Origin: Mesoflavibacter sp.
GTDB taxonomy: Bacteria > Pseudomonadota > Alphaproteobacteria > UBA8366 > Aestuariispiraceae
Direction: 5' to 3'
Length of the DNA stretch: 64,000 nucleotides
NCBI GenBank assembly: GCA_017792345.1
Contig: CP051228.1
Span: 434,001 to 498,000 of the forward strand
The notes beneath the pieces are model-generated. The model made no database searches. It worked only from the letters and a program-made list of their open reading frames with translations, and was not told the origin of the DNA. Below are positions 14,399 to 37,490 of this stretch, piece after piece (position 1 is the stretch's first letter; each line of letters opens with the position of its first letter). The position numbers were made by a program, and so were the translations under genes.

Positions 14399-14443
14399 GG
14401 TACGATTCTCTCCCGTTCCTGTTTTTGCAGCCTTGGCCCGCGC

Positions 14444-15640: not shown

Positions 15641-15671
15641 TGGTTTTACCTTCCGGCTGTGTGGTCGATCC

Positions 15672-16787
15672 CTAGAAGCCTCGGAGCGCCGCGACGCGCG
15701 CCGCATGGAATCCATAGTCGCCGAGCCATTCCGCCCCGACCTGAGCGCGCTTCATATAGAACCCGGCGTCATATTCGTCCGTCATGCCGATGCCGCCGTG
15801 CAATTGAACGCCTTCCTGGACGGCCAGCGCCGCGGTCCTGATCGCCCGCGCCGACGCCAAGGACACTGCGAGCGTCGCATCCTCCGGGGACTCATCCAGC
15901 ATTCGGCCGGCGTGAATGACGGCCGATTCCGTTACCTCCATCTCACACCAAAGCTTCGCGGCCCGATGCTGTAGAGCCTGGAACGATCCGATCACCTTGC
16001 CGAACTGCTTGCGCTCTTTCAGATAGCCCAGTGTCAGGTCGAAAATGCCCGAGGCCAGACCCGCCATTTCAGCGGCCAGTGCAGCCTGGCCCGCCGCCAG
16101 CGCGGGACGAAGAATCGCCATGGCACCGCCGATTTCGCCGACGATATCTTCATCGCGCAGTTCGACATCAAGGAACTGGACACGGGCGGTATCCTGGCTG
16201 TCGACCAGGGCCATTTCCGTGCGCTGAATTCCTTCCCTGTCGGACGGAACATCGAACAGTGTCAGCTGGTCATCGACTTTGGCGAGGACCAGGAACCGGT
16301 CCGCCGCATTGCCATTGCGAACGAAGGTCTTCAATCCGCTCAAACGGAAAGCGTTGCCCGCGCGTGTCGCCACCAGTTTCGTGTTTTCCGGGTCGTGCTT
16401 CGGCCCCTCGTCCACGGCGAGGGCGAATACATGCTTCCCCTCGGCAATGCCACGCAGCGTCTCTTCATGCCGCGGATCATGCGCCGCCTGGAAGATTACG
16501 GGGGCGATAACAGCCGTCGGTATGAAAGGACTGGACGCCAATGTCCGGCCCATTGCGCGGGCCAGAATGCCGGCCGCGGCATGTCCCATGCCGGACCCGC
16601 CCGCGGCCTCCGGGATCAGTACACCCGCCCAGCCCATCTCCACCATCTGCGCCCATAAATCGGGATCGAAGGTTTTACCGGCATCCCGCATTGCACGCAG
16701 ATGCGTGACCGGCGCGGCTTCGCTCAGGAAGCCCCGGGCCATATCATCCAACATCGTTTCGTCTTCGGTGGGCAGCAGGCTGGTCAT
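15672..16787 (-). CDS. Acyl-CoA dehydrogenase, second subunit of a tandem pair
   Basis: FAD-dependent acyl-CoA dehydrogenase fold, 371 aa, with an N-terminal helical domain, a central beta domain, and a C-terminal helical domain ending in [20 protein letters not shown]. It is directly downstream of another acyl-CoA dehydrogenase gene with a 4-bp overlap. The short length, the C-terminal GGIGMTDE type, and the tandem arrangement resemble the heteromeric alpha2-beta2 dehydrogenases described for mycobacterial cholesterol side-chain oxidation. I infer a heteromer with its neighbour. The start MTSLLPTED at 16787 gives the overlap. Confidence 0.88.
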
Positions 16788-17947
16788 GACGGCATCTCCA
16801 AAACTCTTTTGGCAATCACGGAGAGCATGATTTCGGACGTGCCTCCCTCGATCGAGTTCGCCTTGGTGCGCAACCAGTCCGTCGGCAGGCTCCCATAGGG
16901 TCCGTTCCATTCCAGCGCATCCGCGCCGGCGGCGGCCATCATCAGTTCGAAACGCCGCTTGTTCAGTTCCGTGCCGTAGTATTTCAGCATCGACGATGCG
17001 TCCCCGATGCTTCCCGCCTTGGCTTTGTCCTTGTATCGCTCCAGCGTCAGCGCCATCGCCATCATGTCGATGTCGCAGCCAACGGCCTGCGCGCGCAGAA
17101 ACGGATCGCTGGTCCCTTCCAACACGGAAGCCAGCGGACGCCCGCCGGTCAGCCCGGTACGGCCGCCGGAGATCATTGCGCGCTCATGCGTCAGCACATA
17201 TTTCGCGACGTCCCAGCCGCGGTTCTCTTCACCGACGATCTGGGTCCGGGGCACTTCGACGTCGTCAAAGAACGTCTCACAGAAAGGGCTTCTGCCGCTG
17301 ATGAGGCGGATAGGGCGGGTTGAAACGCCGGGGCTCGTCATGTCGAGCAGCAGAAATGTGATGCCGCGGTGTTTCGGTGCATCCCTGTCCGTTCGAACCA
17401 GCGCGAACATCCAATCCGCCTTGTCGGCATAGGATGTCCAAATCTTCTGGCCGTTGATGACATAATTGTCGCCGACCGTCTCCGCCTTGGTCTGAACCGA
17501 AGCAAGGTCCGACCCGGCCCCCGGTTCCGAATACCCCTGGCACCAGCGAATCTCACCGCGCGCGATCGGCGGCAGATACAGTTGCTTCTGCGTTTCGGTC
17601 CCGAATTTTAGAAGGGCCGGCCCCAGCATGCCTATCCCAAAGCCATGCAAAGGGACCCGGGCGCCAAGAGAGGCCATTTCTTCCCGAAGGATCTTTTCCT
17701 GATCGCGAGTCAGACCGCCGCCACCGAACTCAACGGGCCAGGTCGGGACGGTCCATCCCTTCGACGCCATGCGGTCGAGCCAGACTTTCTGCGCGTCCGA
17801 TTGGAAGCTCCAGTTCCGGCCGCCCCAGCAGACGCTTTCTTCGCTGTTGTCCGCGTCGCGCATCTCGGTCGGGCAATTGGCCTCCAACCATGCTCGCGCT
17901 TCCGTTCGAAACTCTTCATTCGTTTGTTGGGCGCCTTGATCGGTCAC
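16784..17947 (-). CDS. Acyl-CoA dehydrogenase, first subunit of a tandem pair
   Basis: Acyl-CoA dehydrogenase of 387 aa with the substrate-loop region GYSEPGAGSDLASVQTKA, FAD-contact segment YVINGQKIWTSYADKADWMF, and a C-terminus ending EGGTSEIMLSVIAKRVLEMP, typical of family members. It opens the five-gene beta-oxidation operon. The start is GTG with a strong AGGAGG 7 bp upstream. The divergent TetR gene and its palindromic operator (18069-18090) lie about 120 bp further up, so this operon is probably controlled by that regulator, with the acyl-CoA substrate or a product as inducer. Confidence 0.9.
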   Translation of the reverse strand: MTDQGAQQTNEEFRTEARAWLEANCPTEMRDADNSEESVCWGGRNWSFQSDAQKVWLDRMASKGWTVPTWPVEFGGGGLTRDQEKILREEMASLGARVPLHGFGIGMLGPALLKFGTETQKQLYLPPIARGEIRWCQGYSEPGAGSDLASVQTKAETVGDNYVINGQKIWTSYADKADWMFALVRTDRDAPKHRGITFLLLDMTSPGVSTRPIRLISGRSPFCETFFDDVEVPRTQIVGEENRGWDVAKYVLTHERAMISGGRTGLTGGRPLASVLEGTSDPFLRAQAVGCDIDMMAMALTLERYKDKAKAGSIGDASSMLKYYGTELNKRRFELMMAAAGADALEWNGPYGSLPTDWLRTKANSIEGGTSEIMLSVIAKRVLEMPS

Positions 17948-20027: not shown

Positions 20028-21041
20028 ATGAGCGACGAACAGTCGAAAATACGCCTTCCGACGATCGACCGGTGGTCCGGCCCGATCCCCGGATTTGCCT
20101 TGATCGCAACGATCGCGGCGATCGCGGTACTCGCCCCCGGACGCATCGTACCGGACTCGATGAGTACCCTTGTCATCGCCCTGCTGCTGGGGATGGCGAT
20201 CCGGCAAGGTATCGGGCGACGGAACCTGACCGGAGAGGCGTCGCGCATCACCGTCCGCTACCTGCTTCGCTGGGCCATCGCCCTTATCGGACTGCAACTG
20301 ACCGTGCCGCAGATCGCGGCAATCGGGCTGCGTGACGCCGCCGCCGTTATCGCAATCCTCGTTTCCTGTTTTATCTTCACCAAGGCCATGGGCCGGGTGC
20401 TGGGCGTGGGGCGCGGCCTGACCGAACTGATCGCGGCCGGGACGTCGATCTGCGGTGCCTCGGCCATCATGGCGGTCAATACCGTGACCCGCGCCGACGA
20501 CGAAGACGTATCCTACGCGCTGGTTGTCGTTACGGTATTCGGCGCCATCCTGATGCTTGGCTATCCGATGGCCGCGGCGGCACTTGCATTGCCCGATCAT
20601 GAATACGGCCTTTGGAGCGGCGCCACGATCCATGAGGTTGCCCAGGCTGTCGGCGCGACATTGCCGGTCAGTGAAGCCGCCTCCGAATCCGGAACCGTCG
20701 CCAAGCTGATGCGGGTTCTGATGCTGGCGCCGTTGATCGCGGTTCTTCAATTCGTGGCCGTGCGCGGCAACGGATCCGGATCGCCGCGCACGGCTATTCC
20801 CTGGTTCGTCCTGGCGTTCTTTGCCGCGGTTGTCCTGAACAGCGTCTTCTCGATCCCGGAACCGGTTCTCTCGGCCACCAAGTTGGTATCGGCATTTCTT
20901 CTGACCATGGCGATCGTCGCGATGGGATTGGAAACCGACATCCGCCGGCTCTGGAAACGCGGGCTTCGTCCGGTTCTCCTCGGAGCCCTCTCCACCGCGT
21001 TCATCGCCGGGCTTGGATACGCCTTGTTCCTCGCCGGTTAG
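20028..21041 (+). CDS. YeiH-family putative exporter
   Basis: Inner-membrane protein of 337 aa in the Cons_hypoth698 (YeiH, 'putative sulfate exporter') family, with about ten hydrophobic segments and the family motifs GLQLTVPQI, AAGTSICGASAIMAV and ATIHEVAQAVGA. The last segment (AIVAMGLETDIRRLW) is characteristic. Transport of sulfite or a related anion has been suggested for relatives but is not settled. It is transcribed away from a LysR gene and ends convergent to the biotin carboxylase gene with a 37-bp gap. Confidence 0.87.
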   Translation: MSDEQSKIRLPTIDRWSGPIPGFALIATIAAIAVLAPGRIVPDSMSTLVIALLLGMAIRQGIGRRNLTGEASRITVRYLLRWAIALIGLQLTVPQIAAIGLRDAAAVIAILVSCFIFTKAMGRVLGVGRGLTELIAAGTSICGASAIMAVNTVTRADDEDVSYALVVVTVFGAILMLGYPMAAAALALPDHEYGLWSGATIHEVAQAVGATLPVSEAASESGTVAKLMRVLMLAPLIAVLQFVAVRGNGSGSPRTAIPWFVLAFFAAVVLNSVFSIPEPVLSATKLVSAFLLTMAIVAMGLETDIRRLWKRGLRPVLLGALSTAFIAGLGYALFLAG

Positions 21042-21078: not shown

Positions 21079-22440
21079 TTATGCCGGGACAAGTAAGTCA
21101 TCGATGATCTTCGTGGTGTGGTCGGCGCGTTGGAACGCGTCCGATCGGATAACACGGCGCAGGAAGGCCGTATTTGTCGACAATCCGGTGATCACCAGTT
21201 CCGACAGCGCGGTATCAAGCAGGGCAAGAGCCGACGGGCGGTCCGGTCCCGACGCGGCGATCTTGGCGATCATCGGATCGTAGAACGGCGTTATCACATC
21301 TCCGGCCCGTACCGCATGGTCAATGCGCAGGCCGGAACGGGACGACGGCCAGAACAGCGTTTCAATCCGGCCCGGCGACGGGAAGAAGTTCTTTTCCGGC
21401 CTTTCGGCGTAGATTCGGGCCTCGACGGCATGCCCCGTCTTGACGATCGTGTTTTGATCGCAAGGCGCCAGGATTCCCGCCGCCTGTTCGATTTGCCATG
21501 CGACCAGGTCGATGCCGGCCACCAATTCCGTTACCGGATGTTCGACCTGGATACGTGTATTCATTTCCAGGAAAGAAAAGTCCTGCCGATCCGCATCGTA
21601 GATGAATTCGACAGTACCCGCCCCGGAGTAGGAAACGGATTCGGCGAGGCGAACCGCCGCTTCTTGCATCTCGGACCGCACCGCATCGGACAGGTTCGGC
21701 GCGGGCGCTTCTTCAATCACCTTCTGGAACCGGCGCTGGACCGAACAATCGCGGTCGTAGACATGAACCGCGGTGCCGTCGCCGAAACCGAAGATCTGCA
21801 CCTCAACATGCCTGGCTTTGGGGACGAACCGTTCCAGGTAGACCGTACCATCGCCGAAACTGCGTTCCGCCATGGACTGCGTCTTGCTGACGACGCTTCT
21901 GAGCGACGTCCCGTCATCGACCCGGCGCATTCCGATCCCGCCGCCGCCCGCGGCCGCTTTCACCAAAACCGGATATCCGATCGCCGCCGCTTCGCTTTCC
22001 AAGGTATCGAGACGATCGAGAGCGAACCGGGAACTGCCGGCGAGCACCGGCACACCCGCGCTCTTCGCGATCGTTCGGGCATTGTCCTTGTCGCCCATTT
22101 TCTCGATCGTGCGGGAATCCGGGCCGATCCATATCAAACCCGCCTCTTTCACCGCATCGGCAAAGGCAGGCGATTCCGAAAGAAAGCCATAGCCCGGATG
22201 GATGGCATCGGCGCCACATTTCCTGGCGGCATCGATGACGGCACCGCCGCGCAGATAACTCTCCTTGGCAGGCGCCGGTCCGATGGAAATGGCTTCGTCC
22301 GCCAGGGCGACATGCGCGCTGTTTTCATCGGCGTCGGAATACACAGCAACGGTCTCGATGCCCATCGACCGGCAGGTCGCCATGATGCGGCAGGCAATTT
22401 CTCCCCGGTTCGCGACCAGCAGCTTTGTGATTTTTGGCAA
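21079..22440 (-). CDS. Biotin carboxylase subunit of an acyl-CoA carboxylase
   Basis: ATP-dependent carboxylation of biotin on the carrier protein. The 453 residues form a stand-alone biotin carboxylase: N-terminal domain (KLLVANRGEIACRI), ATP-grasp domain with the AAAGGGGIGMR loop at about 161-171, and the catalytic EMNTRIQVEHPVTE segment. No biotin carrier or linker domain is attached; the carrier is encoded separately in the same operon. The start is TTG behind AGAGGA, 32 bp after the first carboxyltransferase gene. Last gene of the operon. Whether it also serves fatty-acid synthesis cannot be told, but its partners point to acyl-CoA catabolism. Confidence 0.93.
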   Translation of the reverse strand: MPKITKLLVANRGEIACRIMATCRSMGIETVAVYSDADENSAHVALADEAISIGPAPAKESYLRGGAVIDAARKCGADAIHPGYGFLSESPAFADAVKEAGLIWIGPDSRTIEKMGDKDNARTIAKSAGVPVLAGSSRFALDRLDTLESEAAAIGYPVLVKAAAGGGGIGMRRVDDGTSLRSVVSKTQSMAERSFGDGTVYLERFVPKARHVEVQIFGFGDGTAVHVYDRDCSVQRRFQKVIEEAPAPNLSDAVRSEMQEAAVRLAESVSYSGAGTVEFIYDADRQDFSFLEMNTRIQVEHPVTELVAGIDLVAWQIEQAAGILAPCDQNTIVKTGHAVEARIYAERPEKNFFPSPGRIETLFWPSSRSGLRIDHAVRAGDVITPFYDPMIAKIAASGPDRPSALALLDTALSELVITGLSTNTAFLRRVIRSDAFQRADHTTKIIDDLLVPA

Positions 22441-22472
22441 GATCGTGTCCTCTAATTGCTTCGGATTTTATC

Positions 22473-24068
22473 TCAGGGAATGAACCCGCCCGGCCCGCGT
22501 CTGGGACCGAGATCGTGATGGATGCGCGCTGCCGCGAGTTCGATCAGGCCGCACAGGACCGGCCGAGTTTCGGCCGGATCAATGATGTCTTCGACGGCAA
22601 ACGCTTCCGCCGTCCGGAACGGCGATGCGTAAGGCCGCATCCTCGCTTCGATTTCCGCTTCCTTGGCGGTTGGATCCGGCGCCGCCGCGATTTCCCGGCG
22701 ATACGCAGCCGCGACGCCGCCTTCGATGGGCAGCGACCCCCACTCCCCGGTCGGCCAGGCAAGCTTGTAATCCACGCCGTTCTTGTTGCACGTCGCCATG
22801 CCGGCCATGCCGTAGCATTTGCGAAGCACGACCGTCGCTGTCGGGACCGTCAGCTGCGCCGCGGCATGAACGACCCGCATGCCCTCCAGCAGCGTCGCCC
22901 TCTTCTCGGCACGTATGCCGACCATGAAGCCGGGAACATCCACAAGGAACACGATCGGAATGTGGAACGTGTCGCAGAGTTGCATGAACCGCACATGTTT
23001 GCGGGCCGACCGGTCATCCATCGCCCCGGCATAGACCATCGGGTTATTGGCTATTACGCCTGCGGGCCGGCCGCCGAAGCGGGCCAGCATCGTCACCACC
23101 GACTTTCCATATGTCGGCTGGATCTCGAACTCCGAACCTTGGTCGACAATCAGGGAAATCACGCGCCGGACATCGAACGGCTGATTGCGGGATTTGGGCA
23201 GGATCCCACGCAGCGACTCCTCGTACCGGCCTATCGGATCGTCGCATTCCTCAACCGGCGGCGGCTCCCACACATTCTGAGGCATGAAGCTCAGGAAGCG
23301 CCGAATTTGATGAAGCGCATCCGCTTCCGAGTCCGCCGCATTGTGGATCGTGCCGGCTTCGTCGACCGCAACCGCCGCGCCGCCGAGATCTTCCTTGTCG
23401 ACCGCGTGGCCGAGAGACCGCTTCACAACCGGCGGACCGGCGGCAAAGATCTGGCTGCCGCCACGCACCATGACCGAGAAGTGGGATAGAATGGCGCGCC
23501 CCGCCGGGCCGCCGGCCGCGGTCCCAAGCACCGCCGACGCCACCGGCGAACGCGACAGAAGGGCCACCGATCGCTCGAAACCGTGAACTCCCGGAAACAC
23601 GGTATGTCCGCGTTGTTCGATCGAGCCGACGCCACCACCCGCCCCGTCCACCAGATTCACCAAAGGCAGCCGGTAATGATAGGCGAAGTCTTCCGTCAGT
23701 CCGCCTTGGCCGCCTTTCCGGCGCGGCGCGCTGAAGGTCGTCCCGCCCCTTACGGTGAAGTCCTCCCCCCCGACGACCGTCGTACGACCGGCGATCCGAA
23801 CCGTACCGCAGACATAGGGCGCCGGCGTGACGCCGCGCAGCGTCTGATCCGCGTCATATGCGCCAGTGCCCGTCAGGGCGGCCAGTTCGCTGAAGCTGTC
23901 CGGATCGCCCAGGGCCCTGATGCGTTCGCGCACCGTGAGGCGGCCCGCGGCGTGTTGGCGCGCAACGGCGGCCTCGCCCCCCATCTTCTCGGCTTCCCGT
24001 CGGCGAAACGCCAATTCGGAAAGAAGCGTGTCCATTGGGATATGCGAAGCCGGCCGCAGCGGAGTCAT
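22473..24068 (-). CDS. Acyl-CoA carboxylase, carboxyltransferase (beta) subunit 1
   Basis: Transfers the carboxyl group from biotin to an acyl-CoA. The 531 residues cover both crotonase-like halves of an AccD/PccB-type beta subunit: [18 protein letters not shown] in the first and [18 protein letters not shown], then [16 protein letters not shown], in the second. A second, clearly different full-length beta subunit is encoded two genes upstream. Its ATG overlaps the biotin-carrier stop by 4 bp. Substrate is unknown; propionyl-, methylcrotonyl- or geranyl-CoA-type carboxylases are the relatives to compare. Confidence 0.92.
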
Positions 24069-24286
24069 GTTGTCACGACACCCAGTACGGCATCTTCCTC
24101 GACCGGGTCGCCTTCCTTGACAGTGAGGCTGGCGATCGTGCCGGAAACAGGCGCCTCGACCGGGATTTCCATTTTCATGGATTCCAGGATCATGAGCGTG
24201 TCGCCTTCGGATACGGCCTGTCCCTCAGTGCATTCAATTTTCCAGACCGATCCGCTGACCGGTGCCAGGATTTCACCATTCGCCAT
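24065..24286 (-). CDS. Biotin carboxyl carrier protein (single biotinyl domain)
   Basis: A 73-residue biotinyl domain and nothing else. The biotinylation motif is [12 protein letters not shown] with the modified lysine at K36 or so, flanked by the [12 protein letters not shown] hairpin half. It starts at MANGEILAP with GGAAG upstream. It lies between the two carboxyltransferase genes and overlaps the second by 4 bp, so it is made together with both and probably serves both. Free-standing carriers this short occur in some archaeal and bacterial acyl-CoA carboxylases. Confidence 0.92.
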
Positions 24287-24329
24287 TGTTTCTCTACTTC
24301 CTTCCAGACACGGGATTTGTTGCTGTGGT

Positions 24330-25904
24330 TCAGAATGTCGTCGGCCAGTTGGCCATCCGGTGACGGCCGATCCCCTTCGAGAGCCGGGCCGTATGAATGT
24401 CGAGCATCTCAAGCAGGTAATCGCGGGTGTTCTCGGGACGCAGGACTGTTTGGACGGCATTGATCTCCGCCAGCCCATAGACACCGGCATCGCGTTCCAT
24501 CACGCGCCGCAGGGCCTCGCGCTCGTCCTCGTCGACATTCCGATCCCAGGTCACGACATCGACGGAATAGGCCGGATCCATGAAGCTGACTTCGGCGGAA
24601 GGCCATGCCGCCACCTCGTCGGAGTTCCGCCCGCCCCCCATATTCAGATACGCCTGGCCATAACTCTTGCGCAGGATGATCGACAGTTTCGGCACCGTGC
24701 AAAGCTGGATCGCCGCCATGAAGTTCATGATCTTCCCGGGGGCTTTTCGCCTCTCGCCCTCGATCCCGATGATGAAGCCGGGCGTGTCGACCAGGAGAAT
24801 GAGCGGCACATTGAAACTGTCGCACATCACGACGAACCGGGTGATTTTCTCGCACGCGTCGACATCCAGAGCGCCCGCCTTGAACATCGGATTGTTGGCA
24901 ACGAACCCGACGGTGCGGCCGCCCATGCGCGCCAGTCCGGTTGCCGCAACGCGCCCGAATTTCGGCTTGAACTCGAAGAAGCTATCGGGGTCCGCCACGG
25001 CCTCGATTACTTTTCTGGCGTCGTAACCCTGACGCCGGCTTTCCGGGACAATCCGTTTCAAGCGTTCACGATTGGCGCGAAGCGTTTCGCTTTCCTCGTC
25101 CGGAGCCTCGGTACGCGGCGGGGCCTCATTGCAGTGCGACGGAAGATAGGAAAGGAAGGTTTTGATCTCCTCGACCGCCTCCTCGTCGGTTTCGACGACA
25201 CGGTCGACCATGCCTGTCTTCTCGGAGTGCAATTGCCAACCGCCGAGGTCCTCGGGTTCGACTTTCTGACCGATTGCCAGTGAGGCCAGCCCATGGCTGG
25301 CAACCGCCAGAACAGCCCCTTTCCGCATCACGGTGAAATCCGACAGGCAGGAGTACCAGGCCGAGGATCCGAAACATTGCCCCAGGACGGCGGAAGCCCA
25401 AGGCGTCTGGCGATCCCGCACATATTGCATCGGATCGTTACCCAACAGCGTGCCCATACCCCGGGCGCCCATATTATCGGGCATGCGCGCACCGGAGGAT
25501 TCCCCCAGCCACACGATGGGCATGCCGCGCTCTGTCGCCACCCGTTTCACATGACCGATCTTGCGCATGTTGGTCATGCTCGATGACGCGCCCTTGACGG
25601 TGAAATCATTCGACACCACGGCGACGCGACGGCCGTCTACCTTCCCATATCCGGTAACCTTGCCATCCGCGGGTGTTTTCTCCCGGTCGGCGTCGACCAT
25701 GCTGGAGACACCAAGAAGACCGGATTCCCTGAATGACCCGGCATCCAACAGGCAATCCACCCTTTCGCGCGCATTGAGCAGCCCTTGTTCGGCGCGCCGA
25801 CGCAGTTTCTCGGGACCGCCCATGCCTCGCGCCCAGGCTTCGCGCCGCGACAGCTCGTCCAGTTCCACCAGATTTCTTTCGTCGGAAGATTCCATGATGC
25901 TCAA
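24330..25904 (-). CDS. Acyl-CoA carboxylase, carboxyltransferase (beta) subunit 2
   Basis: Second full-length carboxyltransferase of the operon, 524 aa, with [18 protein letters not shown] in the N-terminal half and [18 protein letters not shown] and [17 protein letters not shown] in the C-terminal half. The two beta subunits share the fold but differ in the acyl-CoA-binding segments, so they probably either accept different substrates or form a mixed hexamer. It overlaps the upstream CoA-transferase gene by 4 bp and ends 43 bp before the biotin carrier gene. Confidence 0.92.
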
Positions 25905-27175
25905 TTGACCTCTCCTTGCTGACCGGACGGTTCTTGGCCGCCGGCCCTATCGGTATCCATGGCGAAAAGAACGCCGGCCTCTATCAGGTCGGCGACCTCG
26001 CGCCGCGTCATGCCCAAGTCGTCTCCAAGAACGGAGTAAGTGTCTTCCCCGGTTTGCCGGCCGGGCCAGTTCACCCTTCCCGGTGTCGACGAAAGGCGCG
26101 GCGTGACATTGGTCATGGCGACCGGCCCCAGGACGGGGTCGGTTGCCGTGACGATCGCTTCGCGGGCCGCAAAATGGGGGTCCGCGAAAATATCCTGCAT
26201 GGTGTAAATCCGGGCGGCGGGGATCGCCGCGTCGTGGAGCTTCGCCTCGACAAATTCCAACTCGTACGTCCCCGTCCACGCCCCGATAATGATGTCCAGG
26301 GCGACGACGTTATCGGATCGCGCATCCGCCGTTGAAAAGCGCGGATCCTGCACCAGCCTCGGCTGGTGGATGACCTCCATCAGCCGCGCGAAGATCGCAT
26401 CGCTGGCCGCGGTGATCTGAATGAAATGTCCATCCGCTGTCGGATACAGGGAATTCGGCGCATTGTCCGGGAGTCGCGCCCCCGCCCGGCGCGCAATTTC
26501 CCCCAGTTGCTGGAACGCCGGGACATGGGGCTCCATGAAACTGAACGCCGACTCGTAAAGGGCCGCATCGACAATTTGCCCCATCCCGGAACTCTTGCGC
26601 GCCATTAGGGCCAGCACCGCACCGAACGCCGCGTACAGCCCGGTGATGTAATCGGTCAGGGAAACCGCGACGCGCGACGGTGGGCGATCCGGGTCTCCCG
26701 TGATTTCCCGGAGCCCGCCGACCGCCTCGCACACAATTCCGTATCCGGGGCGGCCGCTATACGGCCCGTCTTGTCCGAACCCGGAAATCCGCACCAGGAC
26801 CAGCCCCGGATTCTCCGATCTGAGCGTTTCGTAACTCAGACCCCATCGCTCCAGCGTTCCCGGCTTGAAGTTCTCGACAACGATATCCGCCGTTGCACAA
26901 AGACGCCGCGCCAGCACCTGACCTTCAGGCCGGTTCAGATCGACGGCCAGGTTGCGTTTGTTGCGAAGGATTGAGGCCGCGTATAGAGACCGGTCCCCGG
27001 CGCGCTTCCCCATGGTCCGGACGACGTCGCCCTGGCGTTGTTCGACCTTGACCACATCCGCTCCGAAATCGGCCAGCAGTCTTCCGCAGAATGGCCCTGC
27101 CACGGTCGAGCCCAGTTCGATGACCCGGCACCCGTCCAGCGGGCGGCTCTGCCCGGCTCCAACATCCACAGCCAT
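25901..27175 (-). CDS. Family III CoA transferase (CaiB/BaiF, Frc-like)
   Basis: Moves CoA between carboxylic acids. About 424 aa with the N-terminal Rossmann-like fold (GCRVIELGSTVAGPFCGRLL, DFGADVVKVEQ), SGFGQDGPYSGRPGYG, and the likely catalytic aspartate D175 in VSLTDYITGLYAAFGAV, aligning with Asp169 of formyl-CoA transferase. It opens the carboxylase operon and probably activates the acid or recycles CoA for it. Starts at 27175 (behind AAGG), 27202 and 27253 are all in frame; the first places the family N-terminus best. The promoter region is shared with divergent bioY. Confidence 0.88.
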   Translation of the reverse strand: MAVDVGAGQSRPLDGCRVIELGSTVAGPFCGRLLADFGADVVKVEQRQGDVVRTMGKRAGDRSLYAASILRNKRNLAVDLNRPEGQVLARRLCATADIVVENFKPGTLERWGLSYETLRSENPGLVLVRISGFGQDGPYSGRPGYGIVCEAVGGLREITGDPDRPPSRVAVSLTDYITGLYAAFGAVLALMARKSSGMGQIVDAALYESAFSFMEPHVPAFQQLGEIARRAGARLPDNAPNSLYPTADGHFIQITAASDAIFARLMEVIHQPRLVQDPRFSTADARSDNVVALDIIIGAWTGTYELEFVEAKLHDAAIPAARIYTMQDIFADPHFAAREAIVTATDPVLGPVAMTNVTPRLSSTPGRVNWPGRQTGEDTYSVLGDDLGMTRREVADLIEAGVLFAMDTDRAGGQEPSGQQGEVN

Positions 27176-27322
27176 CGATTTCGCCTTGCCCCCTCCCGTC
27201 ATGCCCTGGCGACGGAAATTCCGGGCATCGACAGGCCATCCGTGACGCTGCATGGGCGATCGACAGCAGATGCCAGGTTCCGAACACGGAACATGATGGG
27301 TTCCTCCAGACTTCCGTTTTTC

Positions 27323-27364
27323 TTGACAACAATCCTGTGTTTTGCCTACATGATTGTCAACAAT
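27323..27364 (+). promoter_or_regulatory. Candidate promoter/operator region before bioY
   Basis: TTGACA at 27323-27328 could be a -35 element with a poor -10 (TACATGAT at about 27347). The palindrome ATTGTCAACAAT (arms ATTGT/ACAAT) at 27353-27364 follows. Its close relatives occur before the TRAP operon and the cyclase gene. No BioR-type box was recognised. Confidence 0.35.
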
Positions 27365-27418
27365 TTTACCAACAAAACAGAATCCTGTTTGAAATCAAAA
27401 TGCTGAAGGAGATGTGGG

Positions 27419-28003
27419 GTGAATAATTTTTTCGCAGCAGCAGCCCGTGCCGACCGGTTTGGGCGTTGGACCGGCCTTGTGAACACGGTCCTGTTCGCGC
27501 TCGGCGGCAGCATTGCGATGGCCATCGCCGCCCATGTTAAAATCCCGTTCTGGCCCGTCCCGATGACCATGCAGGTGCTGGTCGTTCTGATGGTCGGCTG
27601 GATCGGCGGGCGAAACTTGGCCGCCTTGAGCATGGGTCTGTACATCGCGCAGGGCGCGATTGGCCTTCCGGTTTTCTCCGGCGGCGCCGGGTTGGCCTAT
27701 CTGGCGGGACCGACCGCTGGTTACATCGTCGGCTTTTTCCTGGCGGCAGTCTTTCTTGGGGAGGTCCGCGACCGCGTCGGCCTGCCGGGCGCGGGGGGTA
27801 TTGCTGCCGCCAATCTATGCGCCGTGGCCTTGATCTACGGGCCGGGCTGGATCTGGCTCAGCGTCATTATGGGAAGCGGCATGGCGGCCTTCTCGGCCGG
27901 TGTCCTGCCCTTCCTGCTGAGCGATGTTCTGAAGATCGGAATTGCCACCGCTGCCGTTATGATCCTCGCAGGACGCAACCGGGAAAAGCCGATGGACCGA
28001 TAG
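27419..28003 (+). CDS. bioY: Biotin transporter BioY
   Basis: Substrate-binding membrane component of the biotin ECF transporter, 194 aa with about six membrane segments and the family hallmarks HVKIPFWPVPMTMQVL at about 38-53, QGAIGLPVFSGGAGL, and LAGPTAGYIVGF. BioY can import biotin alone or with EcfA/EcfT, which are not encoded here. The start is GTG behind AAGGAG. The nearest neighbours are the biotin-dependent acyl-CoA carboxylase operon (divergent) and acyl-CoA catabolic genes (downstream), so the transporter is likely kept here to supply cofactor when the carboxylase is induced. Confidence 0.93.
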   Translation: MNNFFAAAARADRFGRWTGLVNTVLFALGGSIAMAIAAHVKIPFWPVPMTMQVLVVLMVGWIGGRNLAALSMGLYIAQGAIGLPVFSGGAGLAYLAGPTAGYIVGFFLAAVFLGEVRDRVGLPGAGGIAAANLCAVALIYGPGWIWLSVIMGSGMAAFSAGVLPFLLSDVLKIGIATAAVMILAGRNREKPMDR

Positions 28004-28015
28004 TGTTTCCGGCAA

Positions 28016-28076
28016 GGGCGGCATCCCTCCGACACCACCGGACCATAGAGTCGGGGGTCGGAGCCGGATGCCGCCC
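28016..28076 (+). terminator. Long imperfect hairpin after bioY
   Basis: GGGCGGCATCC (28016-28026) pairs perfectly with GGATGCCGCCC (28066-28076); inside, TCCGAC (28028-28033) pairs with GTCGGA (28057-28062). It starts 13 bp after the bioY stop and ends 35 bp before the next gene. There is no T-run, so it may be a Rho-type end, an attenuator or an mRNA-stabilising structure separating bioY from the catabolic genes. Confidence 0.5.
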
Positions 28077-28110
28077 TGCCCGTTAGCGTATCAAGGGAGG
28101 AGGATCCTGA

Positions 28111-29028
28111 ATGGAAACGCGAATGTTGGACGGTAAGGTGGCGATCGTGACCGGGGCCGGCCGCGGTATCGGCAAAGCCATTGCGGTAGGGCTCGCAGCG
28201 GCGGGCGCGTCGGTGGTGGTCAACGATATCGGCGTTTCGCTTGCCGGTGACGGCGGATCGTCCAGTCCCGCCGAAGAGGTGAAGGACGAAATAGAGGCCG
28301 GCGGCGGCAAGGCCGCCATCAACACGGATACCGTGACGGATTGGGACGGGGCGCAAAAGATCGTTCAATGCGCCCTGGATTCCTTCGGTGGTCTCGACAT
28401 CGTCGTCAACAATGCCGGCATTCTGCGCGATGTCATGTTTCACAAGATGGAACCCGCCGACTGGTTGTCGGTCGTGAATGTCCATCTGAACGGGACATTC
28501 TTCGTCAGCCGCGCCGCCGCGCCGATTTTCCGCCGGCAGGAACGCGGGGCCTACATACACATGACCAGCGCGTCCGGACTTGTCGGGAATGTCGGCCAGG
28601 CCAACTATTCGGCCGCCAAACTGGGCATTGTCGCCTTATCGAAATCGATTGCGCTGGATATGGCCCGGTTCAACGTCCGGTCCAATTGCATTTCGCCCTT
28701 CGCCTGGGGCCGGATGACCGGAAACATTCCGACGACCACACCGGACCAGGTGGAGCGCGTGGAGAAGCTGAAACGGATGACCCCGGAAAAGCACGTTCCG
28801 CTGACCGTCTTCCTTGCTTCGGATGATGCCCATGACGTCAACGGGCAGATTTTCGCCCTGCGCATGAACGAGATCATGCTGATGAGCCAAAGCCGTCCGT
28901 TGCGATCCGTCCAATCGAACGACGGATGGACCCCGGAACTGATCCGGGATCGCGCCATTCCCGGGCTTGCGCCGGCCTTCTTCCCGCTGGACCGCAGTCA
29001 GGACGTTTTCTCCTGGGATCCAATCTGA
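28111..29028 (+). CDS. SDR-family dehydrogenase of the MFE-2 (3-hydroxyacyl-CoA) type
   Basis: NAD(P)-dependent short-chain dehydrogenase, 305 aa. Cofactor loop TGAGRGIG at 14-21, NNAG at about 100-103, and catalytic S153, Y166 and K170 (QANYSAAKLG). The NDIGVSLAGDGGS insert and the C-terminal extension of about 60 residues match the dehydrogenase domain of peroxisomal-type multifunctional enzyme 2 and mycobacterial ChsB1, which oxidise bulky 3-hydroxyacyl-CoAs. Preceded by AGGAGG. It is followed by thiolase and ligase genes in the same direction, giving most of a beta-oxidation set. Confidence 0.88.
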   Translation: METRMLDGKVAIVTGAGRGIGKAIAVGLAAAGASVVVNDIGVSLAGDGGSSSPAEEVKDEIEAGGGKAAINTDTVTDWDGAQKIVQCALDSFGGLDIVVNNAGILRDVMFHKMEPADWLSVVNVHLNGTFFVSRAAAPIFRRQERGAYIHMTSASGLVGNVGQANYSAAKLGIVALSKSIALDMARFNVRSNCISPFAWGRMTGNIPTTTPDQVERVEKLKRMTPEKHVPLTVFLASDDAHDVNGQIFALRMNEIMLMSQSRPLRSVQSNDGWTPELIRDRAIPGLAPAFFPLDRSQDVFSWDPI

Positions 29029-29151
29029 ACCGGCCATCGATACGTCCATGTCAAAGGCGCTGAACGGCCGGCCGGTTTCCGGAAAGCAGCGACTTCAATC
29101 GAACCAATTGTTCCAGCGCCCGCCCGGCGGCGCCAAACAAAGGAAACCCAT

Positions 29152-30363
29152 ATGCGCGACGCAGTGATCTGTGAACCTCTTCGTACCCCCGTCGGCGGCT
29201 ATGGCGGCACCCTGCGGGACGTGCCCGTCGCAGAGCTTGCGACAATCGTCATTCAGGAGCTCGTCCGGCGGACAAAGGTTCCTTCGAAAGACATAGACGA
29301 CGTGATCTTCGGGCAGGTCTATGCCAACAGCGAAGCCCCCGCCATCGGCCGGATCGCCGCGTTGGATTCCGGTTTGGACTTCACCGTTCCGGGCATGCAA
29401 CTCGACCGCCGCTGCGGCTCCAGTTTGCAGGCCGTCATCAACGCCGCGATGTGTGTTCAGACCGGTGCTTCCGATCTGATTATCGCGGGCGGGGCGGATT
29501 CCATGAGCCAGGCGGAATACTATACCCAAGGCCTGCGCTGGGGTCTGCGCGGTCGCGACACAGAACTGGTCTGCCGGATCGGCCGGGGCCGTGTTACCGC
29601 CGGCGGGAAGAACTATCCCGTGCCGGGCGGCATGCTGGAAACCGCCGAGAACTTGAGGCGCGAATTTTCCGTGACCCGGGAAGAACAGGACGTATTCGCC
29701 GCCGGATCGCACGCAAAAGCGGTCGCGGCCCAGAATGCGGGACGGTTTGACGATGAGATCGTTCCGGTGACGGTCCGTACCCGGAAGGGCGAGTTGCTGT
29801 TCGACAAGGATGAGCACACACGGCCGGATGCCACGCCACAGTCCCTGTCGGAGTTGCGCCCCATCATGATCGACACGGACCCGGAAGCCACCGTTACGCC
29901 GGGAAATGCCTGTGGCCAGAACGACGCGGCTTCGGCCTGTATCGTGACCACGCCTGAGAAAGCCGATGCGCTCGGCCTGAAGCCGTTGGGCCGTTTGGTC
30001 AGTTGGGGCGTCGCGGGCGTTCATCCGGCCCGCATGGGAATAGGTCCGGTGCCCGCGTCCGCCCGCGCCTTGTCCCTCGCCGGTCTTTCCTTGAAGGACA
30101 TCGACTTGATCGAGTTGAACGAAGCATTCGCCGCACAGGTCCTGGCCTGCGCGAAGTCCTGGGGCCTGGCCGATGGAGACTTCGACCGGTTGAATGTAAA
30201 CGGATCCGGGATTTCGCTGGGACATCCTGTCGGGGCAACCGGCACCCGGATTCTAGCGACGATGCTTCGGGAGATGGAACGGCGAGAAGTGCGCTATGGT
30301 CTGGAGACCATGTGCATCGGCGGCGGTCAGGGACTGGCCGCAATCTTCGAACGGGTAAACTAG
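29152..30363 (+). CDS. Thiolase (acetyl-CoA C-acyltransferase)
   Basis: 403-aa thiolase with nucleophile C88 in MQLDRRCGSSLQAV, NEAFAAQVL, the histidine motif SGISLGHPVGATGTR, and the second cysteine in ETMCIGGGQG. It should cleave the 3-ketoacyl-CoA made by the SDR encoded just upstream (123-bp gap). It differs from the thiolase at 14.4-15.6 kb (GRIAALDSGLDFTVPG against the other's [19 protein letters not shown]), so the two modules handle different substrates. The ligase gene follows after 22 bp. Confidence 0.93.
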   Translation: MRDAVICEPLRTPVGGYGGTLRDVPVAELATIVIQELVRRTKVPSKDIDDVIFGQVYANSEAPAIGRIAALDSGLDFTVPGMQLDRRCGSSLQAVINAAMCVQTGASDLIIAGGADSMSQAEYYTQGLRWGLRGRDTELVCRIGRGRVTAGGKNYPVPGGMLETAENLRREFSVTREEQDVFAAGSHAKAVAAQNAGRFDDEIVPVTVRTRKGELLFDKDEHTRPDATPQSLSELRPIMIDTDPEATVTPGNACGQNDAASACIVTTPEKADALGLKPLGRLVSWGVAGVHPARMGIGPVPASARALSLAGLSLKDIDLIELNEAFAAQVLACAKSWGLADGDFDRLNVNGSGISLGHPVGATGTRILATMLREMERREVRYGLETMCIGGGQGLAAIFERVN

Positions 30364-30385
30364 CGGCCTTGGGGGATAACGCTCC

Positions 30386-32101
30386 ATGAAGTCCAAGCAG
30401 ATCGAGGCCGCCGTTCGGGAGATCGTCGCCAACAACCCGTTGTTCCAACTGGAACGCAGGGAAATCCGGGGACAGAGTTACACCGTCTTCCGCAACATTC
30501 CCGGAACGACGGGCGAATTGTTGCAAAGCGCCTACCACGCCCATGAGGACGGCCGGGCCGACTACCTCGTTTTCGGGGCGGAACGCTGGACCTTCGGGGA
30601 CTTCTGCCGCGACGTCAGAAGACTTTCCCATGCGATGACCGGGACGTTGGGCGTCCGAAAGGGACACTTGGTCGCGATCGGCATGCGGAACTGTCCCGAG
30701 ATGATGGTATTGGTCATGGCGCTCAACTGTATCGGCGCCGTGCCCGTCCTGCTGAACGGGTGGTGGACGACGGAGGAAATCCGGTTTGCCCTGCAGGACA
30801 GCGGCGCGACGCTGATCTTTGCCGATGGAGAACGCGCCCGGCGCATGGCGCCGCTGACGGACAACTTTGCGCGCCCGGACGTAATCGGCGTCCGAGATGG
30901 TGAGGACGTCACCCCCCTGTCCTATTCGAAGCTGCGGGACAGCGTTCCGGACGCGGACTGGCCGGACACCGAAATCGATACCGATGATGATTTCGCCGTC
31001 TTCTATTCCTCCGGCACGACAGGCCGGCCGAAAGGCGTCGTCCTGACCCATCGGGGGGCGGTTACGGCGGTCTACATTGCGCAAATGCTGGCGGAGATCG
31101 ACCGTCATCTCGAGCCGCCGGCGCCGAACGCATCCCCGCCACGGCCGAGTTTCCTGCTCGCAACGCCGCTCTTCCACGTGACCGCGATGCATCCGATTTT
31201 CCTGCGCAGCTTTCCGACAGGCGCCAAAATCTGCCTGATGGAGAAATGGGACGCCGATGAAGCCGTCCGGATCATGGAACGGGAACGGGTCACGCGGTTG
31301 ATCGGGGTTCCGACCCAGACGGCCGACATCATCGAGGCGGCGGATAGGACGGGGGCGGACTTGCGGTCCTTGATCTCCATCGTGTCCGGCGGCGCCAAGC
31401 GCCCTGCATCCCAGGTCAATGAATTGGCGAAACGGTTCCCCTCCGCCCGGATCGCGACCGGCTGGGGAATGACGGAAACGAACTCAAACGGGATTGCGAT
31501 AAGCGGCGCGGATTACCTGGCCAACCCGGACGCGGCCGGGCGCTTGAACCCGCCGGTCCACGAAATGCGCCTGCTGGGTGAGGATGGCCGGGAGGTCGGC
31601 CCCTTCGAGATCGGCGAGATCGCGATCAAGAGCCCCTGCACCATGCGGTGCTACCTGAACAATCCCGAGGAGACGGACCGCGTGCTGCGGGACGGATGGC
31701 TGCATACCGGCGATCTGGCGAAGATCGACAAGGATGGGATCGTCACGATTGTCGACCGCAAGAAGAACATCATCATTCGCGGCGGCGAGAATATAACGTG
31801 CCTTGAGGTCGAGGAAGCGATCCACCGGCACCCATCCGTCGCCGAGGTCTGTGTCTTCTCCGTACCGCATCAAAGGCTCGGAGAGGTCGTCGGCGCCGGC
31901 ATTCGCCTGAAACCCGGATGTGCCATGACCGTCGAGGACATGACGGATTTCCTGAGCGGAAACATCGCCCGCTTCAAACTGCCGGAACACATCTGGTTCC
32001 GGACAGATCCGCTTCCGCGCGGCGCGACCGACAAGCTCGACCGCCGTTTGCTGCGGGCGCAGTGTCTGGAAACCCTCCCCTTGCCGGAGCCGATATCGTG
32101 A
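30386..32101 (+). CDS. AMP-dependent acyl-CoA synthetase
   Basis: Activates a carboxylic acid to its CoA ester through an acyl-adenylate. 571 aa with the P-loop motif FYSSGTTGRPKGVVLTHRG at about 210, the A5 motif GWGMTETNS, and the C-terminal YLN...LHTGDLAKIDKDGIVTIVDRKKNIIIRGG region with the conserved lysine of the hinge and a catalytic lysine near the end (ATDKLDRR segment). Last gene of the rightward bioY-SDR-thiolase-ligase set. Acid specificity cannot be read directly; the neighbouring MFE-2-like SDR suggests a bulky or branched acid. Confidence 0.92.
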   Translation: MKSKQIEAAVREIVANNPLFQLERREIRGQSYTVFRNIPGTTGELLQSAYHAHEDGRADYLVFGAERWTFGDFCRDVRRLSHAMTGTLGVRKGHLVAIGMRNCPEMMVLVMALNCIGAVPVLLNGWWTTEEIRFALQDSGATLIFADGERARRMAPLTDNFARPDVIGVRDGEDVTPLSYSKLRDSVPDADWPDTEIDTDDDFAVFYSSGTTGRPKGVVLTHRGAVTAVYIAQMLAEIDRHLEPPAPNASPPRPSFLLATPLFHVTAMHPIFLRSFPTGAKICLMEKWDADEAVRIMERERVTRLIGVPTQTADIIEAADRTGADLRSLISIVSGGAKRPASQVNELAKRFPSARIATGWGMTETNSNGIAISGADYLANPDAAGRLNPPVHEMRLLGEDGREVGPFEIGEIAIKSPCTMRCYLNNPEETDRVLRDGWLHTGDLAKIDKDGIVTIVDRKKNIIIRGGENITCLEVEEAIHRHPSVAEVCVFSVPHQRLGEVVGAGIRLKPGCAMTVEDMTDFLSGNIARFKLPEHIWFRTDPLPRGATDKLDRRLLRAQCLETLPLPEPIS

Positions 32102-32181: not shown

Positions 32182-33381
32182 TTACGCGGCGGCCTTCGTC
32201 TTGCCCACATATCCATCCCGGGTTTGCGGGAACTTCATATCCAGGATTGAGGACGCAACCTGGTTGCGCAGCAACTGCGCCGTTCCGCCGCCGATGGGGA
32301 ACATTCTCGCATCCCGGACCATTCGTTCCAGCGGCAGGTTTCTGGAATATCCCATGGCACCATGCAGCTGCAGGGCGTCGTTGGATACTTTTACCGCGGT
32401 TTCAGACGCCAGGATTTTCGCCTGCGCGGCCTCCAGCATGGAAGGAAAGCCGTCAGCCCCGTTGACCGCGGCATTGTGGAGCAAGGCGCGCGACGCCGTG
32501 ATGCTGATCGACATATCCGCCAACATCCACTGCAGCCCCTGGAACTCCGCGATGGGGCGTCCGAACTGTTCCCGCTTCTTCGTATATTCCAAGGCGATTT
32601 CATAGGCGCCCTGGGCAATGCCGAGAGCCACCGTGGCGGCGCCGACCCGCTGGCTGTTATAGGCCGTCATCAGGGTTGGAAATCCCCGACGGAACCCGCC
32701 CGGCAATTGCAGAACCATGTCGTCCGACACGAACATGTCATCGAAATGGACATAACGTTCCGGCATCCCGCGAAGCCCCATCGTCGGCTCCCGTTCCCCC
32801 ATCCGGAGTCCCTCGGTCTCTTCCCGGAAGGCCAGAAACCCGCCTATCCCCATGTCCTGCCCATTCTCCATGACCCGCGCCAGAACGAGGTAGACGCGAG
32901 AGACCCCGCCGCCGGTAATCCAGTATTTGGTGCCATTCAGGACATAGCCGCCGTCGGTGCGAGTGGCGACGGTTGTCATATCCGTCGCCGCGGATCCGGC
33001 CGCCGGTTCCGTGATGCAAATCGCCATCTTGTCGCCGGCGAGGATATAGGGGGCGACCTTCTCCTTCTGGGTCTGCGATCCGAAAGCCATGACCATGCTG
33101 ATCGCGCCCATATTGGCCTCGACGACAATTCGCCCGGTGACACCGCAGTTCCGGGACAATTGCTCGATGACCAGCATCGCATCCAGGTAACTCAATCCGG
33201 ATCCGCCGAACGCCTTCGGGATCGTCATTCCCATGAAACCGGCCTTGGAGAGCATTTCGACAGTGTCCCATGGATATTCCTCGGTACGGTCGATCTCCAT
33301 GGCACGGTCCCGCACATGGCCGTCGGACAAGGATCCGGCACGGGCCTGAAGATCCTTCTGAAATTGGGTCAGCTGTACCAT
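32182..33381 (-). CDS. Acyl-CoA dehydrogenase
   Basis: FAD enzyme of 399 aa that forms the 2-enoyl-CoA. Visible are ICITEPAAGSAATDM, YVLNGTKYWITGGGVSRVYLV, and the C-terminal LQLHGAMGYSRNLPLERMVRDARMFPIGGGTAQLLRNQ, where the E of the usual GYxxEYP motif is replaced (GYSRNLPLE). Convergent with the ligase gene and divergent from a LysR gene, so it forms its own unit but supplies the missing first step for the SDR-thiolase-ligase set. Starts at ATG 33381 near GGAAAA. Confidence 0.9.
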   Translation of the reverse strand: MVQLTQFQKDLQARAGSLSDGHVRDRAMEIDRTEEYPWDTVEMLSKAGFMGMTIPKAFGGSGLSYLDAMLVIEQLSRNCGVTGRIVVEANMGAISMVMAFGSQTQKEKVAPYILAGDKMAICITEPAAGSAATDMTTVATRTDGGYVLNGTKYWITGGGVSRVYLVLARVMENGQDMGIGGFLAFREETEGLRMGEREPTMGLRGMPERYVHFDDMFVSDDMVLQLPGGFRRGFPTLMTAYNSQRVGAATVALGIAQGAYEIALEYTKKREQFGRPIAEFQGLQWMLADMSISITASRALLHNAAVNGADGFPSMLEAAQAKILASETAVKVSNDALQLHGAMGYSRNLPLERMVRDARMFPIGGGTAQLLRNQVASSILDMKFPQTRDGYVGKTKAAA

Positions 33382-35593: not shown

Positions 35594-36901
35594 TCAGTTC
35601 ACCCAGGACACCGGCACCAGGACGATGGCGGGGATCGCGATCAGGATCACGATGATGGCCAGATCGACGGTCAGGAATGCCAAAATCCCTCGAAATATGT
35701 TGCCGAGCGATACGGCATCACCGACCACCCCCTTGATGACGAAGACGTTCATTCCCATCGGAGGGGTAATCATGCCGATCTCGAGCATCTTCGTCAGGAA
35801 GACCCCGAACCAGATGACGCTGAACCCGGCTTCGTCGACGATCGGCAACACAATCGGCAAGGTCAGAAGCATCGTTCCGATCGGCTCCAGAAACATCCCC
35901 AGAACTATGTAGAGGAGTGCGATGCCGATAATGAGCAGCACCGGATCGGATCCGAAGCCGATGACCAGGTCCGTGATGAACTCGCCCGAGCCGCTGAGGG
36001 CAAGGAACCGGACCAGCAATGCCGCGCCGCATCCGATGATGAACAGGCTGGACGTTGTGACCAGGGTTTCGACCAGCGCCTTCCGAAGTTCGGACATGCT
36101 GAGCGAGCGCATCGAAAGGGCGATGCCGATCGCCATGACGGCACCGACGGCACCGGCCTCCGTCGGGGTGAAATAGCCGGCCAGCAGGCCGCCGAAGACA
36201 CCGAATATGAGAACCAGGACCGGCAGGGTTTCCTTCAACGCGTCGAACCGCATTGCCCAGGAGATATCCTCCACCACCGGCGGCGCCAGTTCGGGTTTGA
36301 AGCTGACCAGAACGATGATGACCAGAATGTAACCCAGCGCCGTGATCAGCCCGACGGATATGCCCCCCATGAAAAGCGAGGCGATCGGGACCTGAGCGAT
36401 GATGCCGTAGAGGATCATGAGGATGGATGGTGGAATCAACGCGCCGAGTGTGCCGGCGACGGCGAGAGTGCCCGCGGCCAGCCGGGGCTGGTATCCGTAT
36501 TGGACCATTTCGGGAAAGGCGATCCGCCCCATCGCCGCGGAACAGGCTACGGAAGACCCGGTCACCGCGGCGAACCCGGCCGCGCCGAATACGGACGCAA
36601 CCGCCAACCCGCCCGGCAGCGCCGATAACCAAAGGCGCGCGAACCTGAACAATCCCCGGGTCAGTCCGGCGCGGTAACTGACATATCCCATCAGCAAAAA
36701 CATCGGGATCGAACTGAGGGCCCAGGTCGCCGCAAAAGTCTGCGGCACGAGGCTAATGGTCCCCCAGGCGGCGCGCGGTCCGCCAACCCACCAAATTCCG
36801 ACAAACGAGACGCCGATCAATGCAAAGCCGATCGGTACGCGATTGGCGACAAGAACGACCAGGACGCCGATACAGATCAGGCCGATTTCCAAACTAGACA
36901 T
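35594..36901 (-). CDS. dctM: TRAP transporter large permease (DctM)
   Basis: Twelve-helix membrane subunit of a tripartite ATP-independent transporter, 435 aa, using the sodium gradient to import an organic acid. Family signatures include SSIPMFLLMGYVSYRAG, VTGSSVACSAAMGRIAFPEM, GTLGALIPPSILMILYG and the ending GMITPPMGMNVFVIKG. It follows the small permease gene with only 3 bp between stop and start. Substrate is not evident; the neighbouring cyclase-family hydrolase suggests a carboxylate. Confidence 0.94.
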   Translation of the reverse strand: MSSLEIGLICIGVLVVLVANRVPIGFALIGVSFVGIWWVGGPRAAWGTISLVPQTFAATWALSSIPMFLLMGYVSYRAGLTRGLFRFARLWLSALPGGLAVASVFGAAGFAAVTGSSVACSAAMGRIAFPEMVQYGYQPRLAAGTLAVAGTLGALIPPSILMILYGIIAQVPIASLFMGGISVGLITALGYILVIIVLVSFKPELAPPVVEDISWAMRFDALKETLPVLVLIFGVFGGLLAGYFTPTEAGAVGAVMAIGIALSMRSLSMSELRKALVETLVTTSSLFIIGCGAALLVRFLALSGSGEFITDLVIGFGSDPVLLIIGIALLYIVLGMFLEPIGTMLLTLPIVLPIVDEAGFSVIWFGVFLTKMLEIGMITPPMGMNVFVIKGVVGDAVSLGNIFRGILAFLTVDLAIIVILIAIPAIVLVPVSWVN

Positions 36902-36904
36902 GAT

Positions 36905-37456: not shown

Positions 37457-37490
37457 TTTTGCGGTCCTGTTCGACTTCGAGTGGCTGTGA

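Follow-up and report, generated by a model that had tools for sequence, protein, structure and literature searches.

Biotin-dependent carboxylases are sorted by substrate and by subunit plan, and in their carboxyltransferases (CTs) the active site is generally formed across two subunits, one giving the N-domain and the other the C-domain. PccB, AccB, 7w5u and 1vrg have a full-length CT of two halves, an ATP-grasp biotin carboxylase (BC) and a biotin carrier with an MKM motif. The mycobacterial long-chain acyl-CoA carboxylase AccA3/AccD4/AccD5 has one BC subunit with two different CTs; in the part of the published account used here, AccD4 co-precipitated and co-purified with AccA3 and AccD5, and the exact composition is called unproven (PMC4064979). 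Here we describe a carboxylase gene set in a 64,000-nt stretch (the window; contig CP051228.1, positions 434,001 to 498,000) of the 4.9-Mb, single-contig genome of an alphaproteobacterium deposited as Mesoflavibacter sp. A minus-strand operon (27253 to 21079) encodes, in order of transcription, a class III CoA-transferase (CoAT), a first CT (CT1), a biotin carrier (BCCP), a second CT (CT2) and a BC. The module shares the two-half CT, ATP-grasp BC and MKM carrier with PccB, AccB, 7w5u and 1vrg, but its CTs are only ~33 to 38% identical to theirs, carry another specificity residue and have altered acyl-CoA loops. It resembles AccA3/AccD4/AccD5 in joining one BC to two CTs, which by analogy gives the two-CT idea a mycobacterial precedent, but it has a separate 73-residue carrier and an attached CoA-transferase, and no epsilon subunit was seen in the operon. 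With an ATP-grasp BC, a carrier bearing the MKM lysine and CTs of family PF01039, the general features of an acyl-CoA carboxylase are all present, and the operon is a predicted self-contained module of this kind.

We favor, at a probability of about 0.5, a mixed enzyme of CT1 and CT2 over two enzymes that share BC and carrier. These were the two options offered in the first-pass annotation of this DNA, and they are still the live ones. In the scheme that we infer, an imported carboxylic acid would receive CoA from the class III CoA-transferase, BC would use ATP to carboxylate biotin on the 73-residue carrier, and a CT containing both CT1 and CT2, most probably as a mixed hexamer, would then carboxylate the acyl-CoA at active sites that each join an N-domain from one subunit to a C-domain from the other. 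Biotin would be supplied by BioY, regulation by a GntR protein and the substrate by TRAP genes.

The gene caller returned 59 genes in the window, to which the 73-residue carrier was added, and 21 of these in all were scanned against family libraries. Each gene named in the first-pass annotation (CoA-transferase, CT1, carrier, CT2, BC, BioY, short-chain dehydrogenase/reductase [SDR], thiolase and ligase) lies where it was placed. The operon genes had also been described as linked by overlaps, which holds for the carrier stop and CT2 start (4 nt, ATGA at 24065-24068) and for CoA-transferase and CT1 only if the CT1 open reading frame (24330-25904) begins at its TTG at 25904, again a 4-nt overlap; the ATG start at 25895 leaves a 5-nt gap, and gaps of 43 and 32 nt separate CT1 from the carrier and CT2 from BC. 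Our CT1 query sequences started at 25898. The host has three further full-length CT genes; the BC domains near them are in open frames (671, 703 and 665 aa) whose length leaves room for a fused carrier, so that the contrast drawn earlier with typical catabolic carboxylases is borne out within this one genome.

The gene set recurs in other genomes and is therefore above chance. The CT1 sequences of the window and of five plasmid loci, once aligned, led to 554 related stretches in named genomes, of which the best 80 were kept as nearest; these loci span 4.3 to 21.6 kb, many end at contig ends, and they are not independent. Alongside CT1 they encode the CoA-transferase (78 of 80), carrier (75), CT2 (72), a GntR regulator (67) and BC (55), and 55 have a transporter binding protein of the TAXI/TRAP, SsuA-like ABC or TTT type. 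The commonest gene strings are GntR-CoAT-CT1-BCCP-CT2 (19 loci), CoAT-CT1-BCCP-CT2 (13) and GntR-CoAT-CT1-BC-BCCP-CT2 (12). BC falls into two grades, about 54 to 68% or 43 to 50% identity. Going by their titles, the loci come from Alpha-, Beta- and Gammaproteobacteria and from bins labelled SAR324 and Gemmatimonadaceae; two bins titled Bordetella parapertussis (L131, L132) also hold the module, a species label that is probably wrong. Cupriavidus plasmids carry the set as well, a Variovorax plasmid has it rearranged across two places (L045, L052), and on a Sulfitobacter plasmid CT1 occurs with BC, carrier and BioY, with no CT2 seen within the stretch. We recognised no paper describing the gene set in open PMC text, a coverage that excludes subscription journals and preprints.

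CT2 is inherited together with CT1. Of 43 genomes in the host's order, 25 have CT1 (E up to 1e-130) and 12 have CT2 (E up to 1e-150), and all 12 genomes with CT2 also have CT1 (hypergeometric P = 0.0003, relatedness ignored). In a search of 289 genomes of the class that scored up to five candidates in each, only the host and one other genome (G202) gave CT2 matches above 700 bits; the next best reached 467.5 bits.

CT1 and CT2 are deeply separated. In the window they share 33% identity with each other, and 34% (CT1) and 36% (CT2) with the genome's own propionyl-CoA carboxylase (PCC)-type CT (L001); identities to propionyl- and acetyl-type CTs in general are about 33 to 38%. We built a CT tree of 97 rows (272 thinned at 75% identity) by a quick search with Shimodaira-Hasegawa-like approximate likelihood ratio (SH-aLRT) support and no bootstraps; AccD4, AccD5 and geranyl-CoA carboxylase rows were not included. 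The 39 CT1 rows form one group (SH-aLRT 100), and the 23 CT2 rows form another (99) nested in a larger CT2-like group (100), with no reference row of the PCC, acetyl-CoA carboxylase (ACC) or methylcrotonyl-CoA carboxylase (MCC) type inside either the CT1 or the CT2 group. Neither CT joins the MCC-type CTs, as which L002 and L003 may be read from their motif and long BC frame, or shows the motif (F/Y)GAGNY. Six PDB entries contain chains labelled D4a (12) and D5a (24), which we take from these labels to be AccD4 and AccD5; in phmmer searches they rank below other CTs for both CT1 and CT2 (the chains were not placed in the tree), which makes orthology of CT1 or CT2 with AccD4 or AccD5 less likely. 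Because the two CTs are only 33% identical and lie in separate, well-supported groups, a recent duplication in one known substrate clade, raised in the first-pass annotation as a possible origin of the pair, is excluded.

Different CTs also stand side by side at L023, L025 and L052 in other Proteobacteria, as in our module, either as tandem CT2-like genes or as CT1 with a CT2-like gene, with differing subclades; we know of no characterised member of such pairs. Tandem CT2-like genes occur at L023, at L030 and at places in genomes G139 and G238, and since the pair at L023 comes from two different subclades, paired unlike CTs may be common.

Active-site residues were compared in 124 CT1 and 101 CT2 rows (some genes repeated via overlapping loci) and nine reference CTs, with positions numbered along the 1vrg stretch that begins at chain residue 19. 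CT1 is changed in one acyl-CoA loop (GG to GS, position 166), at Y169 (to W) and in the FxTGP loop, and retains SGAR and the C-domain YxAYxxM. CT2 retains the AGG and F/GP loops of the N-domain and is changed at SGGAR, at D175 (to His) and at Y401, M404 and M425 of the C-domain. Among 34 N-domain positions constant in the nine reference CTs, CT1 has lost 8 and CT2 9. The choice between acetyl and propionyl substrates is steered by a CT position, ScPccB D422/ScAccB I420, according to the part of the source drawn on here (PMC7835884). At this position the window CT1 has Leu and the window CT2 Met, which are also the commonest residues in the two families; the Asp or Ile of PCC and ACC is absent from both window CTs, and at least one stand-alone CT1 has Ile. 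Both CTs thus appear from their residues to be reshaped enzymes with altered acyl-CoA pockets, and neither looks dead: an inactive subunit was the other outcome foreseen at first pass, and no obviously inactive CT was seen.

Two further comparisons favor a mixed enzyme. CT1-CT2 distances are the best correlated of ten gene pairs (Pearson 0.88 over 69 loci, window included), ahead of CT1-CoAT (0.84), CT1-BC (0.71) and CT1-carrier (0.66). AlphaFold2, given CT1 and CT2 as a read-through with a linker, packs them together (predicted template modeling score [pTM] 0.69, mean predicted local distance difference test [pLDDT] 73.9, ~100 linker residues disordered); a linked CT1-BC served as rough control (pTM 0.51, mean pLDDT 78.0, CT1 part uncertain in places), and the comparison is weak support, as it lacks a homodimer control and sets alignments of different depth (41 and 33 rows) side by side. 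Set against the mixed CT1/CT2 enzyme, distance correlations rise with shared operon life by itself, and packing might be seen with any two homologous CTs. The partner of CT1 is not fixed, since at L052 on the Variovorax plasmid CT1 adjoins a CT2-like gene of another subclade. The AGG and F/GP loops kept in the CT2 N-domain and the YxAYxxM kept in the CT1 C-domain would suit a mixed enzyme, but the residues of CT1 and CT2 are not cleanly complementary, CT2 having lost SGGAR and an N-domain Asp. CT1 from genomes with no CT2 found has the same pattern as paired CT1, which makes the pattern uninformative on pairing; as stand-alone CT1s share it too, we no longer take complementarity to prove that the active site is mixed. 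CT2 is missing from 8 of the 80 loci; when seven of these genomes were searched (that of L116 was left out), it lay elsewhere in three (55 to 62% identity), and in the other four (G289, G290, G291, G293; by title two isolates and two bins) nothing exceeded 35% identity (best 34 to 35%). Finally, 17 regions chosen mainly for having no visible partner comprised 14 with CT1 and no CT2, one full pair and two with CT2 alone (L197, L198).

These loci also speak for CT1 and CT2 as separate homohexamers that share BC and carrier and act on different acyl-CoAs or at two steps of one pathway, a possible reading that we rate clearly below the mixed enzyme. At L093, L095, L096 and L098, in genomes with no CT2 above 35% identity, CT1 stands with BC and carrier; stand-alone genes of both families exist; and residue patterns are alike with or without a partner. 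The Variovorax locus with CoA-transferase and CT2 (L045) does not clearly help this reading, because CT1 is present at L052 on that plasmid, and separate homohexamers fit less well with the retention of both genes in 72 of 80 CT1 loci, with the strength of the CT1-CT2 distance correlation and with the AlphaFold packing. A division in which a single CT does the catalysis and its partner has become structural or regulatory seems unlikely: CT1 has lost small acyl-CoA-loop residues (GG to GS, G to S, A to W), and genomes with no CT2 found suggest that CT1 can suffice, but the two families are each conserved and retain most reference-constant positions. CT1-family genes with no CT2 in the stretch were seen at L182 to L194, L196 and L049, with a BC match only in L182 and L049. 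NDP-forming CoA ligases lie near CT1 in L182, L187 and L049, SucCD-like genes (by Pfam) lie beside CT2 in L198, and in genome G318, which has a stand-alone CT1, the only BC frames are 450, 691 and 684 aa long, with no extra single BC.

The module could conceivably run in reverse, importing a malonate-type dicarboxylate, activating it with CoA and decarboxylating it, the carboxybiotin then yielding ATP via BC or serving the second CT to carboxylate another acyl-CoA. Transcarboxylases have two CTs with one carrier, a plan that the module resembles; activation by a CoA-transferase and the TRAP, TTT or ABC binding proteins of 55 of 80 loci, with a GntR regulator, would also suit such a route. The BC in 55 of 80 loci, however, is a better fit to ATP-driven carboxylation, and no sodium-pump decarboxylase subunit occurs among the 21 window genes scanned, so that we consider reversal improbable. 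Least probable of all is that the module encodes a usual propionyl- or methylcrotonyl-CoA carboxylase whose CT gene has been duplicated. Membership of the same Pfam family and the 34 and 36% identity to the genome's PCC-type CT would agree with it, but the separate deep groups refute its duplication part, Leu and Met replace the Asp or Ile of PCC and ACC as the commonest specificity residues, and further CT and BC sets are present in the genome.

Table 1. Features of the carboxylase module and its surroundings in the window.
Feature	Position	Strand	Basis or remark
Class III (CaiB/Frc-like) CoA-transferase, first gene of the operon	25901-27253	-	PF02515, E 7.9e-116, residues 39-405 of 450
Carboxyltransferase CT1, 521 aa from ATG at 25895	24330-25895	-	PF01039, 334 bits
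Biotin carrier (BCCP), 73 aa, motif ESMKMEI	24065-24286	-	PF00364; NF004547, 76.4 bits (cut-off 75)
Carboxyltransferase CT2, 531 aa	22473-24068	-	PF01039, 328.8 bits
Biotin carboxylase, 453 aa, no fused carrier	21079-22440	-	PF00289, PF02786, PF02785
BioY biotin importer	27419-28003	+, divergent	PF02632
SDR	28111-29028	+	Real gene, outside the conserved module
Thiolase	29152-30363	+	Real gene, outside the conserved module
AMP-forming ligase	30386-32101	+	Real gene, outside the conserved module
YeiH-family putative sulfate exporter, adjoins BC gene	20028-21041	+	PF03601; TIGR00698, 179.5 bits (under cut-off 232.6)
GntR regulator	38978-39691	+	75% identity to the GntR immediately upstream of the L054 module
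TRAP transporter, candidate substrate importer	35594-38636	-	DctM 35594-36901; probable DctQ 36905-37456; DctP-like 37491-38636

The genes around the operon (Table 1) differ in how closely they belong to it. The GntR relative sits beside the TRAP genes, away from the operon, so that the module is dispersed in this window, and neither had been connected with the carboxylase at first pass; among the TRAP genes, dctM scores 276.9 bits (cut-off 268.45) and TRAP_S1 55.8 (cut-off 50), and DctQ is called by position only. The closest NCBIfam model for the CoA-transferase is succinate-glutarate CoA-transferase (254.6 bits, under the cut-off of 750). The SDR, thiolase and ligase had by implication been linked to the carboxylase, a link that we dropped, since thiolase and ligase each match in one of 80 loci; SDR matches (28 to 37% identity) occur in four. 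A beta-oxidation cluster at 12330-17947 (enoyl-CoA hydratase, hydroxyacyl-CoA dehydrogenase, thiolase and two acyl-CoA dehydrogenases closest to the PimC and PimD models, both below cut-off) was also set aside as a candidate part of the system, outside the tally of loci. In other genomes, a membrane protein of ~450 aa lies near CT2, TRAP genes and BC (L055:8120-9451; also L054, L057, L058, L059, L062, L066, L068 and L079); it has matches in 15 of 80 loci, the remainder weaker, and two copies scanned gave no Pfam match. The suggested tie between BioY and the carboxylase is borne out in part. Biotin import or biosynthesis genes are found in 10 of 80 CT1 loci. The host genome has two BioY genes, one beside the operon, and no BioB over cut-off (best 31.2 versus 225 bits), and so it probably needs to import biotin.

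The class III CoA-transferase, importer and GntR regulator suggest a small carboxylic acid as substrate, and an organosulfur acid is hinted at by the sulfate or sulfite exporters that lie close to some loci. YeiH-type genes occur in 3 of 80 loci versus 0.19 expected (11 background copies in 19 genomes) and TauE-type genes in 7 versus 1.97 expected (115 copies), a comparison of BLAST hits in the loci with hidden Markov model hits in the host and its relatives. YeiH adjoins the BC gene both in the window and in genome G301 (L204). TauE is known to export sulfite, and sulfolactate use is known to involve a sulfate exporter, judging by titles cited in PMC12421959. SsuA-like binding proteins are encoded in 24 of 80 loci, and thiamine pyrophosphate (TPP) enzymes resembling Xsc (at least 60% identity to the L129 copy, itself below the Xsc cut-off) in 6, L129 included. 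Such a TPP enzyme occurs with choline-dehydrogenase-like GMC genes near the module at L066, L068, L102, L110, L115 and L129. The hint is countered by the lack of either exporter in the stretch of 70 of 80 loci and by the weakness of desulfinase matches in related loci (25 to 37% identity, 6 of 80). Sulfolactate genes at L045 are not claimed: the Ldh-family gene there scores 134.6 versus 500 for L-sulfolactate dehydrogenase. Its UxaA-type gene fits galactarate dehydratase best, far below cut-off (185.2 versus 730.85), and a search of that gene against plasmids added nothing.

In the window itself, an acyl-CoA dehydrogenase family gene (32182-33381), divergent from a LysR-like gene, exceeds the NCBIfam cut-off for 3-sulfinopropanoyl-CoA desulfinase (632.6 versus 600 bits), which suggests use of a sulfinate acid. 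A described system of this kind has activation by a class III CoA-transferase or SucCD and export of sulfite or sulfate, and, unlike our module, is described in a main text from which the word "carboxylase" is absent (PMC6370202). We regard it as doubtful, though worth stating, that the module carboxylates a sulfonated or sulfinated acyl-CoA, in which case a short organosulfur acid would be imported, CoA-activated and alpha-carboxylated by mixed CT1/CT2, and sulfite would leave, perhaps with one CT carboxylating and the other decarboxylating with elimination. If true, organosulfur breakdown would gain a new route and carboxylases a new class of substrate. As another candidate we weighed a natural glycolyl-CoA carboxylase, an enzyme that is called new-to-nature (PMC10729300).

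Taken on its genes, the module is conserved, occurs mostly in Proteobacteria and has two old, mutually diverged CTs, whose reshaped pockets suggest a substrate outside the known list. In a field ordered by substrate and subunit plan, it offers a compact case for asking why two CTs stay together, and because its genes are clustered, sometimes on plasmids or in named isolates, the questions of substrate and of two CTs are open to direct test.

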